Shown here in pieces: positions 2,333-9,235 of a DNA stretch of 64,000 bases. Location of the stretch: assembly GCF_000426045.1 (NCBI RefSeq), contig NZ_AUEP01000009.1, positions 124,001 through 188,000 on the forward strand, read 5' to 3'. The notes beneath the pieces were generated by a model. That model was not told where the DNA came from. It ran no database searches and was given only the letters and a program-made list of their open reading frames with translations. Origin of the DNA: Marmoricola sp. URHB0036 (GTDB lineage Bacteria; Actinomycetota; Actinomycetes; Propionibacteriales; Nocardioidaceae). Both the position numbers and the translations under genes were made by a program. The stretch's first letter is position 1. Each line of letters starts with the position of its first letter.

Positions 2333-2399
2333 GCACCGACCCGGCGTACCGGATTTTTCGCCGACCCGGCAGGTGGGTACCCTGTGGCCTGCTGTTCCT

Positions 2400-2489
2400 G
2401 GAGGTGTCGCCTAGCCCGGTTTATGGCGCCCGCCTGCTAAGCGGGTTGAGGGTAATCCCCTCTCGCGGGTTCAAATCCCGCCACCTCCG
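2400..2489 (+). tRNA. tRNA-Ser (anticodon GCU)
   Basis: The acceptor stem is a perfect GGAGGTG/CACCTCC pairing, the anticodon GCT lies in CTGCTAA, and there is a long class II variable arm, a TTCAAAT T-loop and discriminator G. CCA is not encoded. TACCCT at 2378-2383 is a plausible -10. Confidence 0.97.
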
Positions 2490-2494
2490 CGGTT

Positions 2495-2528
2495 GACCGC
2501 CCCGGACCCTCATGGGTCCGGGGCGGTC
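2495..2528 (+). terminator. hairpin terminator after tRNA-Ser
   Basis: Perfect 15-bp stem (2495-2509 with 2514-2528) and a TCAT loop, five bases after the tRNA. There is no U-tract, which is common for actinobacterial terminators. Confidence 0.85.
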
Positions 2529-2651
2529 CTGGTCATGCCCTGAAAACCTGCGTGATCGTGCAATGCACAGTCATGTGGACACCAGAACTGTTACTGGCGC
2601 GAAACGCGCGGGCACGATGGCACTTGCCCCGAGATGAGAAGGAATTGCTCC

Positions 2652-2807
2652 ATGAATTCACGAATTTCCAAGGTAATTGCGGCCGGCCTTCTGGCGGTCG
2701 GTCTGTCCACGGTCAGCATTGCCGCTCCCGCCGACGCAGCCATCCTCAAGAAGGCCTCGACAGGCGCGAGCACGGCCGACACCGGATGGGGTTACACGGC
2801 CAAGTAG
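2652..2807 (+). CDS. 51-residue secreted peptide, candidate signal peptide precursor
   Basis: A complete 51-codon gene, ATG at 2652 to TAG at 2805-2807, with AAGGA about ten bases before the ATG. It encodes a textbook Sec signal: a short basic n-region (MNSRISK), a hydrophobic core and an AXA-type site (PADA before residue 30). This predicts an exported peptide of about 22 residues, starting AILKK and ending DTGWGYTAK. The surrounding DNA is less GC-rich than its neighbours. The stop is 26 bp from the convergent stop of a LuxR/TrmB-type regulator. Homology is unknown to me; a role as that regulator's signal is inference from position and export. Confidence 0.75.
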   Translation: MNSRISKVIAAGLLAVGLSTVSIAAPADAAILKKASTGASTADTGWGYTAK

Positions 2808-2833
2808 GCGCGGCAAGCTGAGCTCTGAGTCGG

Positions 2834-3820
2834 TCAGTTGTCGGGGGCTGACTCCGAGTCCCGGCTCCCCATCGCGTAGCCCAGCTGGAACCTCGTCTCC
2901 ACGCCGTACTCCTCCTTGAGGGCGGCGACGTAGGAGGCATAGGTGCGCGTGCTGACGCCCACACGTTTGGCACTCGCAGGGTCGCTGTGGCCCTCCGTGA
3001 GCATCCGCACGGTCAGCTGTCGCACCTCCGCGGCGATGTCGCTGTCGGAGGCGCTGCCCCGCTCGTTGTACTCGCGAGCCCGCTCCCAGGAGCGGTCGAA
3101 GATGTCCGCGAGGTAGGAGACCAGGTTCTTGTCGTGGATGGCGAGAGCCACGTCGGGAGCCTCGCCCGGGATGATCGCCAACCGACGGTCGATCACGATC
3201 AGCCGGTTGAAGAACTCGTCGAGCGTGCGCACCTGGGCGCCGTGGGCGAGCATCAGGTTCACGTAGTCGCGGGTGGCCTTCGAGCGCCGAGCTGTGTGCT
3301 GGTAGAGCGTGCGCATGTGCACGCCACGTTCGATCGTGCGCAGGTCGCGGTCCACCGCCTGCTGCAGGATGACGGCCCGCCGAGCCCCAGCCGGCTGCGC
3401 AGTCAACAGCTCTGTCTCGGCATCGTCGACGGTCGACTCAAGGAAGCGGTTGATGTTGGCCAGGCCGCGGATCTCGTCGATCGGGCTGCCGGTCGGCGTA
3501 CGCCGATAGGCCTGCGACAGCTGGGCGAAGGTGTCGGCCCACGCCGCGGACTCCGCGAGCAGCTCGGCCACCTGCCGGCCCATCGGGGCCACCACGCCGG
3601 ACTGCGCCGCCGCCGGATCGGACGCGACCCACCCACCCGACTCGGCCTGGCGCAGCAGGCCCAGGTCGACCAGCACGCGCACGGCCGGGTGGTCGCTGTG
3701 GCCGGGCCTGAGCCGGGGGTCGCTCTCGGGGAGCACCCCCTTGGCCACGACCTCACGGAAGATCGTCCCGGCCGTCCCCTCCAGCAGTGCGCGTCGCTGC
3801 GGACCCTGCTGCATGTTCAT
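2834..3820 (-). CDS. LuxR-type regulator with TrmB/PLD-like sensor domain
   Basis: About 328 residues. The first 50 or so form a winged-helix-like segment (ALLEGTAGTIFREVV). The middle part (about 130-245) has the alpha/beta pattern of TrmB or phospholipase D-like sensor domains (LLTAQPAG, RTLDEFFNRLIVIDRRLAII). The C-terminus is a LuxR/GerE helix-turn-helix (RQLTVRMLTEGHSD, VSTRTYASYVAALKEEYG). The frame is open to a GTG at 3856, but that start lies in the pckG terminator hairpin, so ATGs at 3832, 3820 or 3814 are more likely. It ends tail to tail with the secreted peptide gene, its likely partner. Confidence 0.85.
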   Translation of the reverse strand: MNMQQGPQRRALLEGTAGTIFREVVAKGVLPESDPRLRPGHSDHPAVRVLVDLGLLRQAESGGWVASDPAAAQSGVVAPMGRQVAELLAESAAWADTFAQLSQAYRRTPTGSPIDEIRGLANINRFLESTVDDAETELLTAQPAGARRAVILQQAVDRDLRTIERGVHMRTLYQHTARRSKATRDYVNLMLAHGAQVRTLDEFFNRLIVIDRRLAIIPGEAPDVALAIHDKNLVSYLADIFDRSWERAREYNERGSASDSDIAAEVRQLTVRMLTEGHSDPASAKRVGVSTRTYASYVAALKEEYGVETRFQLGYAMGSRDSESAPDN

Positions 3821-3845
3821 GCAACGCAGCATGCCCTGAAATGAC

Positions 3846-3874
3846 AGGACCCGCACCCTGGGGGCGCGGGTCCT
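3846..3874 (-). terminator. hairpin terminator of pckG
   Basis: Inverted repeat AGGACCCGC (3846-3854) with GCGGGTCCT (3866-3874) and a short GC-rich loop, 34 bp after the pckG stop on the minus strand. It separates pckG from the downstream LuxR-type gene. Confidence 0.75.
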
Positions 3875-3907
3875 GGTCGGTCAGCGAGACAGGCGGTCAG
3901 GGCACTC

Positions 3908-5758
3908 TCAGGCGCCGAGTCGCGCCTTGAGGCCGTCGAGCTCGGTCCACAGCACCGCGGGGAGCTGGTCGCCGAACTTCTCGAACCACTCGGTGATCTG
4001 GGGGATCTCCTGCTTCCACTCCTCGACGTCCACGTCGAGCGCCCGGCGCAGGTCGTCCTCGGTCACGTCGAGACCGTCGATGTCGAGGGAGCCCGGCGCG
4101 GGGACGTGGCCGATCGGCGTCTCGACCGCCGCGGCCTGGCCGTCGATGCGCTCGATGATCCACTTCAGCACGCGGCTGTTCTCACCGAACCCGGGCCACA
4201 GGAAGCCGCCCTCGTCGTCGCGGCGGAACCAGTTGACGTAGAAGATGCGGGGCATCTTGGCGGCGTCGTTGTCCTTGCCCATGTTGATCCAGTGGCTGAA
4301 GTAGTCGCCGGCGTTGTAGCCGATGAACGGCAGCATCGCCATCGGGTCGCGGCGGACCACACCGACCTGACCGGTCGCGGCAGCGGTCGTCTCCGAGGAG
4401 AGGGTCGCGCCCATGAACGTGCCGTGGACCCAGTCGCGGGCCTCGGTGACGAGCGGGATGGTCGTCTTGCGTCGGCCGCCGAAGAGGATGGCGTCGATCG
4501 GGACACCACGCGGGTCGTCGTACTCCGGGGCGAGCATGTCGCACTGCTTGATCGGGGTGCAGTAGCGGCTGTTCGGGTGGCTGGAGAGCTCCTCGGAGTC
4601 GGGCGTCCAGGGCTCGCCCTTCCAGGAGGTGGCGTGGGCCGGCGGGTTCTCCAGGCCCTCCCACCAGACGTCGCCGTCCTCGGTGAGCGCGACGTTGGTG
4701 AAGACCGAGTTGCCCTTGTTGATGGTCTTCATCGCGTTGGGGTTGGTGTGCTCGTTGGTGCCGGGCGCGACGCCGAAGAAGCCGTACTCCGGGTTGACCG
4801 CCCACAGCCGGCCGTCGTCGCCCACGCGCATCCAGGCGATGTCGTCACCGATGGCCTCGACCTTCCAGCCCGGGATGGTCGGCTCGAGCATGGCGAGGTT
4901 GGTCTTGCCACAGGCACTCGGGAAGGCGGCCGCGACGTACTTCGTCACGCCCTCGGGGCTGGTCAGCTTCAGGATCAGCATGTGCTCGGCCATCCAGCCC
5001 TCGTCGCGCGCCATCGCGCTGGCGATGCGGAGGGCGTAGCACTTCTTGCCGAGCAGGGCGTTGCCGCCGTAACCCGACCCGAAGGACCAGATGGTGCGCT
5101 CCTCGGGGAACTGCACGATGTACTTGGTGTCGTTGCACGGCCAGGCGACGTCCTCCTGGCCCTCGTCGAGCGGCATGCCGACGGAGTGCAGCGCGGGGAC
5201 CCAGTGGAACTCCTCACCGGCCGCGTCGAGCTCCTCCATCTTGCGCAGCACGTTGGTGCCCATGCGGGCCATCACGCGCATCGAGGCGGTGACGTACGCC
5301 GAGTCGGTGAGCTCGACGCCGAACATCGGGTGCTCGGCCTCGAGGTGTCCCATCACGAACGGGATGACGTACATCGTCCGGCCCTTCATGCAGCCCGCGT
5401 AGAGCTTGCGCATGATGGCCTTCATCTCGCCGGGGTCCATCCAGTTGTTGGTGGGCCCGCAGTCCTTCTCGTCGACCGAGCAGATGTAGGTGCGGTCCTC
5501 GACGCGCGCAACGTCGGTGGGGTCGGAGGCCGCGTGGAAGGAGTTCGGCTTCTTCTCGGGGTCGAGACGGGTGAAGGTGCCGGTCGCCACCAGGGCGTCG
5601 GTCAACTCGACCCACTCCTCGTCCGATCCGGTGCACCAGTAGACGCGGTCGGGGGTGGTGAGCTCGGCGACCTCGTTGACGAAGGCGAGGATGCCTGCGT
5701 GGGATGTCGGCGCGCTGTCGTGGGTGGCGGTGGTCTCGTTCGACGTGTCGGCGGTCAT
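3908..5758 (-). CDS. pckG: phosphoenolpyruvate carboxykinase (GTP)
   Basis: Cytosolic enzyme converting oxaloacetate and GTP to phosphoenolpyruvate, GDP and CO2, the entry step of gluconeogenesis. At 616 residues it matches the family (about 600-620). The kinase-1a P-loop FPSACGKTN with the reactive cysteine (C283) lies near 279-287, the [12 protein letters not shown] motif at 229-240 and the metal/nucleotide segment IGDDIAWM just after 300. The ATG follows AGAGGGA, a good ribosome site. A 7-bp hairpin (5809-5815/5821-5827) lies in the 5' leader. It is monocistronic with its own terminator. Confidence 0.98.
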
Positions 5759-7473
<1,715 letters not shown>

Positions 7474-9106: not shown

Positions 9107-9179
9107 GCGCCTGTAGCTCAACGGATAGAGCATCTGACTACGGATCAGAAGGTTGGGGGTTCGAATCCCTCCAGGCGCG
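9107..9179 (+). tRNA. tRNA-Arg (anticodon ACG), copy 2
   Basis: Same sequence as the gene at 6157 except for the outermost T-stem pair, G:C here. Acceptor stem GCGCCTG/CAGGCGC, anticodon ACG, discriminator G, no CCA. It lacks the hairpin and repeat array that follow copy 1. Confidence 0.97.
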
Positions 9180-9235
9180 CACATCTTCTGGCCCGGGCGT
9201 GACGTCCGCGTGGGTGGTCGAGTACACATGACACC

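Follow-up and report, generated by a model that had tools for sequence, protein, structure and literature searches.

The window, by which we mean the whole 64 kb stretch of DNA that was analysed, carries a short peptide precursor gene and a regulator gene lying tail to tail. The stop codon of the precursor ends at 2807 and that of the regulator begins at 2834, which agrees with the 26 bp spacing reported in the initial annotation. The features of the two genes are as follows.

2637-2643, + strand: Shine-Dalgarno sequence AGAAGGA, 8 nt 5' of the ATG, read from the sequence
2652-2807, + strand: peptide precursor gene of 51 codons, with a Sec-type signal and a 22-residue mature part, from the sequence; 144 homologues at E <= 0.01
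2652-2738, + strand: predicted signal peptide, cut after APADA, placed by eye; A27 and A29 nearly invariant in the alignment
2778-2792, + strand: DTGWG, predicted active core; D and W invariant in the 22 genus peptides, D-x-x-W-x near-identical among the copies in multi-copy precursors
2834-3832, - strand: cognate regulator P0002, 332 aa; alternative starts at 3820 or 3856
3623-3814, - strand: N-terminal winged helix-turn-helix (HTH), residues 7-70, from the structure model; profile match to TrmBL2 from position 15
3062-3490, - strand: PLD-like/TrmB effector domain, residues 115-257, predicted to bind the peptide; profile match, model and structure matches
2858-3046, - strand: putative C-terminal LuxR-type HTH, residues 263-325, from the model; HTH_23 match below cut-off at 272-313 of the 335-residue query

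The precursor reads MNSRISKVIAAGLLAVGLSTVSIAAPADA (signal) followed by AILKKASTGASTADTGWGYTAK (mature part), with the cleavage site placed by eye, and the predicted mature part ends in DTGWGYTAK. The tiny exported peptide gene that had been proposed, with its ribosome-binding site, its signal and a mature part of this length, is present as described. When the open reading frames of the window were filtered on size, hydrophobicity and ribosome-binding site, 54 passed, three of them with D-x-x-W, and D[ST][GAST]W occurred only in the gene at 2652-2807. A database search with the 22 peptides of the genus retrieved 144 proteins (E <= 0.01). Among the 120 homologues listed, none has a relevant function name, and some carry the names Marmoricola or Nocardioides; the last motif of the 119 other than the window's own is DTGW in 116, DTAW in two and DSGW in one. 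No Pfam or NCBIfam model scored above its cut-off for the scanned peptides. Membership in the RiPP natural products of the thiovarsolin type was considered and rejected, as model NF033878 scored 20 bits against a cut-off of 35 for one of eight precursors and was not listed for the other seven.

For the regulator, the combination of a winged HTH and an effector domain that marks TrmB regulators was recovered by profile search against TrmBL2 structures (E 8e-8 over residues 15-249) and by Foldseek (E 1e-12), with the Pfam match to TrmB (PF11495) staying below threshold (E 0.0098; 15.6 bits vs a cut-off of 22.2). The putative C-terminal LuxR-type HTH corresponds to helices at 263-325 in the model, with a sub-threshold HTH_23 match and no GerE match at E <= 1. 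No tetratricopeptide repeat (TPR), receiver or autoinducer-binding domain was found in Pfam at E <= 1. Some regulator homologues are named LuxR or NarL/FixJ in the databases, and most of the named ones TrmB. Of the earlier description as a TrmB-like sensor with a LuxR HTH, the TrmB part stands, and the domain list was incomplete: the model shows a winged HTH, a PLD-like/TrmB domain and a further HTH, and thus one DNA-binding-type domain more than had been named. The model has a pTM of 0.51, and the domain arrangement is accordingly tentative.

The gene next to the regulator on its upstream side, in the same orientation, encodes a GTP-dependent PEP carboxykinase (3908-5758). On the other side lies a gene for a membrane protein (1799-2332) that no Pfam model matched above its cut-off; its YRVRxLR...RLRDGRTT stretch is found again before the pair in many relatives. 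The window also holds two tRNA-Arg(acg) genes 3 kb apart (6157-6230 and 9107-9180), and repeats of gcgcagcgaggc-like units were seen by eye after a tRNA-Arg gene (6300-6480). A scan of 2380-4000 for sigma-70 promoters and terminators found nothing, and an Rfam scan gave only the tRNA and two matches below the gathering score.

Conservation of the pair, its dyad and its motif

The regulator is present in 22 of 24 genomes of the genus, the window's own counted, and each of the 22 loci has a convergent small Sec-type open reading frame that carries D[TS][GA]W at its end or close to it (21 detected by script, that of L004 by reading). In the two genomes that lack the regulator, G001 (75% complete) and G011 (100%; 150 of 162 candidates scored), the peptide model found only weak matches, which end at model positions 33-39 of 53 and correspond to the signal-peptide half only. 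More widely, the regulator was found in 73 of 149 genomes and 8 of 26 genera of a family sample and in 49 of 296 genomes of a class sample (both E <= 1e-30), and in 12 of 296 genomes of a phylum sample (E <= 1e-25), including one, G686, from another class, in which an open reading frame ending in NGTYDTGWD is divergent from the regulator (L267).

Among distinct Nocardioidaceae-type regulators, a script found the peptide for 67 of 72. Of the remaining five, L004 does carry it, L073 is located at the end of a contig, the motif is altered in L083 and L150 (TSWG and SDWP), and no peptide was seen at L091. In contrast to the convergent pair of the genus, the regulator of the Streptomyces "type A" pair is divergent from its precursor. 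All of the best 80 of 514 confirmed named Streptomyces loci have a precursor, with one to nine D-x-x-W copies, in a search whose query alignment consisted of type A regulators picked for having a peptide, so that this set samples type A only. Elsewhere in these 80 loci, such open reading frames numbered seven in 699 kb, and the pairing of peptide gene with regulator exceeds chance. Taken over distinct Streptomyces-type regulators, 97 of 185 have a peptide of their own; the remaining 88, of types B and C, come from the same clusters. The initial annotation had named a lack of conservation of the small gene next to related regulators as grounds for refutation; the gene is conserved in the genus, in the Nocardioidaceae-type set and in the 80 Streptomyces loci. 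The pair is apparently one case of a widespread and undescribed pairing in actinobacteria; no description of a DxxW peptide/regulator system was found among the open-access literature matches listed, which is not proof of absence.

Several Streptomyces clusters (L107, L109, L110 and L112-L115) contain three to five regulators in both orientations and one precursor. Distant regulators (L025, L026, L156, L158, L165, L268, L284 and L288) lie near other small secreted open reading frames with a Trp near the C-terminus, with motifs such as CGITAVCWGM, CIGCW, GSTIWG, DSLWD, DDTGWD, DPGWQ and GDNGWW; possibly, these are further dialects.

Two palindromic features accompany the pair.

2551-2575, no strand assigned: dyad CGTGATCGTGCAATGCACAGTCATG, a candidate binding site of the regulator ahead of the peptide gene; includes GTGCA-A-TGCAC at 2558-2568
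3810-3824, - strand: TTGCATGAACATGCA, containing TGCATG-TT-CATGCA at 3810-3823, a possible autoregulatory half-site over the regulator start

The palindrome GTGCA-A-TGCAC noted in the initial annotation is real and forms the core of the larger, conserved candidate operator at 2551-2575. This dyad has one mismatch to CATGANNNTGCANTGCANNNTCATG, the dyad read upstream of the peptide genes of the genus, and is the only match with up to three mismatches in the window, where 0.01 would be expected. Across the 24 genomes, 10 sites have two mismatches or fewer, nine of them at the peptide locus; such a site occurs at the locus in 9 of 14 searched genus genomes that have the regulator, and G003 and G014 have one with three mismatches. 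The shorter TGCA-N-TGCA precedes the peptide gene at 18 of 20 loci of the genus and at 40 of 47 other loci of the family, against a background of 4-6%. It is found upstream of none of the 97 Streptomyces precursors, 76 of which have the half-site GAACnTGCA in common, and TGCA-N-GTTC is absent from the phage loci described below.

A second palindrome that had been suggested as a binding site, GCGCG-AAA-CGCGC at 2597-2609, is present, but was dropped as an operator: judged by eye, the upstream regions of relatives do not have it and it looks incidental. The third, TGCATG-TT-CATGCA at the regulator start, is likewise real; by eye, a site of this type was not seen there in most relatives. No regulon emerged beyond the locus: the dyad scan of this genome gave two further sites with three mismatches, equal to the count of the backward-pattern control, and a scan with TTGCATGAACNTGCA gave a single perfect match, the one at 3810-3824, and nine sites with two mismatches vs five in the control.

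The precursors contain one to ten D-x-x-W copies in Streptomyces and one to six in Nocardioidaceae. In multi-copy precursors the tetrapeptide is identical in all copies in 79 of 85 cases in Streptomyces and 20 of 21 in Nocardioidaceae, and it varies among precursors (DSGW, DTGW, DVGW, DLGW, DISW, DSTW, DPGW and others). When copies are compared, identity is 1.00 for D, 1.00 for x2, 0.95 for x3 and 1.00 for W, and 0.84 (Streptomyces) or 1.00 (Nocardioidaceae) for the residue after W, whereas the six residues before D reach only 0.10-0.34. Beyond the core, identity drops to 0.30 in Streptomyces, whereas in Nocardioidaceae it is still 0.85 at +5 and 0.55 at +6 (16 and 15 precursors). Most of the mature part outside the motif is variable, and the precursors have no uniform processing site. 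We take D-x-x-W(-x) as the probable functional unit of the precursor. The initial annotation had proposed the whole peptide of about 22 residues as the ligand; the identity between copies favors the core, and the likely ligand would be the 4-5 residue DTGW(G) rather than the whole 22-mer.

Covariation of the regulator with the motif

Covariation was assessed on trees built from the regulators only, separately for 97 Streptomyces and 67 Nocardioidaceae pairs, by comparing the branches on which x2 changes with the branches of change in each regulator column. Three codons of the window's regulator correspond to the positions that stood out.

3407-3409, - strand: L142 codon; the position changes together with x2 of the motif and ranks first among 193 columns in Streptomyces (p 4e-13) and first among 254 in Nocardioidaceae (p 8e-7)
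3356-3358, - strand: A159 codon; in Streptomyces, Gly here accompanies an x3 other than Gly (15 of 15)
3344-3346, - strand: D163 codon; Asp or Glu in 133 of 133 pairs with Ser or Thr as x2

In Streptomyces, 12 of 14 changes at column 121, the equivalent of L142 in the window, coincide with the 18 x2 changes, and the next column has a p of 8e-4. The best Nocardioidaceae column is the same position, with 7 of 11 changes coinciding, and the next reaches 2e-4. When random branch sets were drawn by branch length, none of 400 per data set attained the observed p; the best random value was 1e-7 in Streptomyces and 3e-6 in Nocardioidaceae, the latter not far from the observed 8e-7.

The residue pairings at position 142 are chemically sensible. 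Across both sets, Met142 occurs in 49 of 52 pairs with Ser as x2 and in 1 of 112 others; by set, it accompanies Ser in 39 of 39 Streptomyces and 10 of 13 Nocardioidaceae pairs, the other three having no Met142. In Streptomyces, Thr, Val or Ile as x2 goes with Val142 (48 of 48), as does Leu in five of seven cases, the other two having Ala; among the rarer residues, Phe is found with Ala, Pro with Leu, and one Ala with Met. Similarly, position 163 is Asp in all 68 Streptomyces pairs with Ser or Thr as x2 and in none of the 29 others; in Nocardioidaceae it is Asp or Glu in 65 of 65 such pairs. Counting against the rule, the DITW pair keeps Glu163.

For x3, all 15 Streptomyces regulators with Gly159 have an x3 other than Gly, which is also the case for 14 of 81 with Ala159, and no regulator column was significant in Nocardioidaceae (best 4e-3). 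The Streptomyces signals for x3 and x5 are modest (1e-4 and 3e-5, before correction for columns and offsets). For the fifth residue the best columns are 158 in Streptomyces (p 3e-5) and 154 in Nocardioidaceae (p 4e-5), which lie on the same helix and are weak after correction.

An internal control is provided by the type B paralogs, which have no peptide of their own: 33 of 34 have V-G-A at 142/159/163 and the other is gapped there. As type B is constant at the specificity sites, it may read another ligand. Type C regulators vary at these sites, and in the loci tabulated their residues do not track the local motif.

The initial annotation had suggested that the peptide is the ligand of the regulator, and the covariation in two separate sets speaks for this. 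Peptide binding by the regulator is strongly suggested by these comparisons, and we infer that strand 141-146, with residue 142, and helix 153-168, with residues 159 and 163, form the reading site.

Phage and plasmid versions

Streptomyces phage Chymera (KU958700.1) encodes a distant relative of the regulator, gp29 (27.7% identity, E 5e-15), and beside it, divergently, gp30, with a signal peptide followed by DPGWG...DPGWG; the pair (L299:4646-5921) lies near the integrase and the immunity repressor. Three IMG/VR contigs (L304-L306) with regulators 100, 88 and 68% identical retain both DPGWG copies, and in two of these contigs the spacers differ; an IMG/VR scan with A4 found no relative. Position 142 is Leu in Chymera, in L306 (the 68% relative) and in L101, a Streptomyces pair with DPGW; in the distant paralog L284, located about 700 bp from a precursor with DPGWQ, the aligned residue is Thr, not Leu.

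A relative of the regulator is present in 121 plasmid records. Four plasmid loci were examined, and two of them, L300 and L303 on Streptomyces linear plasmids, have a candidate peptide some 600 bp away, ending in GDSAWG and CDTSWGG, in arrangements unlike the chromosomal ones.

Interpretation and comparison with known systems

Taking the pairing, the homogenized motifs of multi-copy precursors, the covariation and the conserved upstream dyad as observed, we consider it probable that the locus encodes a peptide-pheromone circuit. The precursor would be exported by Sec, and its mature part trimmed outside the cell to a linear peptide built around D-x-x-W(-x), which in the window is DTGW(G). This peptide would be re-imported, probably by an oligopeptide permease, and bound by the PLD-like/TrmB domain of the neighboring regulator, in which the strand-helix site (142 on the strand, 159 and 163 on the helix) would read x2 and x3. 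Binding may then alter the use that the regulator makes of the TGCA-N-TGCA dyad before the peptide gene, leading to feedback. The regulator would, at a guess, be an activator, and the purpose of the circuit is presumably cell-to-cell signaling.

The main rival to such a circuit is an intracellular gauge of export, in which the regulator would bind precursor that has not left the cytoplasm, as a readout of Sec capacity or envelope stress, with no signal passing between cells. It likewise requires binding, and covariation implies binding, not import. Moreover, a Streptomyces lavendulae pair (L193) lies in a stress neighborhood, flanked by a ClpB-like gene and, on the other side, by MerR-type, dnaJ, grpE and dnaK genes, whereas the neighbor in the window is the PEP carboxykinase gene and not a heat-shock gene. 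A gauge accounts poorly for diversification and for the phage copy: there is no evident reason for x2 and x3 to diversify between species or for up to 10 homogeneous copies per precursor, and a phage-borne pair fits signaling better. We regard this explanation as unlikely.

Less probable still is that the peptide is an effector, such as an antimicrobial or surface peptide, that is merely controlled by the regulator. In favor of this reading, regulators often control small secreted peptides encoded next to them, and a dyad lies upstream of the peptide gene. However, the reading leaves unexplained why single residues of the effector domain covary with the motif and why the mature part is variable outside it, and no modification or immunity genes were found among the scanned neighbors (two Streptomyces loci and the window). 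A chance or phylogenetic artifact, with spurious column correlations between co-inherited neighbors, might be suspected as the pair is tightly linked and hence of common ancestry, and as the test treats branches as exchangeable, but is very improbable: common ancestry would make many columns covary, whereas the top Streptomyces column stands some nine orders of magnitude above the next, the other family singles out the same position, none of the random branch sets reached it in either data set, and the type B paralogs from the same loci do not covary.

The pheromone circuit that we favor resembles the RRNPP systems of the Bacillota (Rap, Rgg, NprR, PlcR, PrgX) in its adjacent propeptide and receptor genes, proposed re-import and cognate specificity. 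RRNPP systems are defined by adjacent genes for an exported propeptide and a cytoplasmic receptor of 250-500 aa, with re-import (PMC10075063); the genes described here are 26 bp apart and the regulator has 332 aa. In contrast to the TPR receptors of RRNPP, the DxxW receptor is TrmB/PLD-like with two HTH domains and no TPR was found in it, its precursors can be multi-copy with D-x-x-W units, and it occurs in Actinomycetota. As it works like RRNPP systems but lacks their defining receptor feature, we do not place it among them.

From the archaeal TrmB and TrmBL2 regulators, the DxxW regulator differs in its putative extra C-terminal LuxR-type HTH and in its predicted peptide ligand, as opposed to a sugar. 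With actinobacterial LuxR-type regulators it would share the putative LuxR-type HTH; unlike these and AHL receptors it has no receiver or autoinducer-binding domain (Pfam, E <= 1), the domain there being PLD-like. In the available part of a 2016 review (PMC4748050), two major classes of actinobacterial LuxR regulators are described and a third is begun, none with a TrmB domain or a DxxW peptide.

Outside bacteria, yeast alpha-factor precursors carry near-identical short active units between variable spacers in one secreted precursor. The multi-copy DxxW precursors likewise have near-identical units between variable spacers, but the unit is bacterial, has four to five residues and would act on a cytoplasmic regulator rather than a membrane receptor.

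In the arbitrium system of Bacillus phages (AimR-AimP) the receptor has a TPR fold. Chymera is similar in that genes for a peptide precursor and a regulator lie close to those for its integrase and repressor, and different in that the fold of AimR is unrelated to that of its regulator. Tentatively, and as a reading that falls somewhat short of likely, we propose a DxxW/TrmB-LuxR language across Actinomycetota with a readable code (142 and 163 reading x2, 159 reading x3) that would serve chromosomes, linear plasmids and temperate phages alike, and in which Chymera and its relatives would use a DPGWG dialect for an arbitrium-like lysis-lysogeny decision with an unrelated receptor.

In Bacillota, linear peptide signals that are encoded by genes and sensed by cytoplasmic receptors are textbook knowledge, and Streptomyces hosts also use butyrolactones. 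Actinobacterial signals are typically enzyme-made small molecules, according to the available part of PMC10075063, and that of PMC4748050 mentions cyclic or modified peptides besides butyrolactones. The occurrence of the pair in Streptomyces, in Nocardioidaceae and in at least one genome of another class would mean a further layer of signaling in these bacteria, antibiotic producers included. It would establish PLD-like/TrmB proteins as a new class of receptor and offer pentapeptides as cheap synthetic ligands and candidate inducers, and the covariation points to a direct residue-swap test of specificity. The phage pair would add a second type of communication by peptides among phages.
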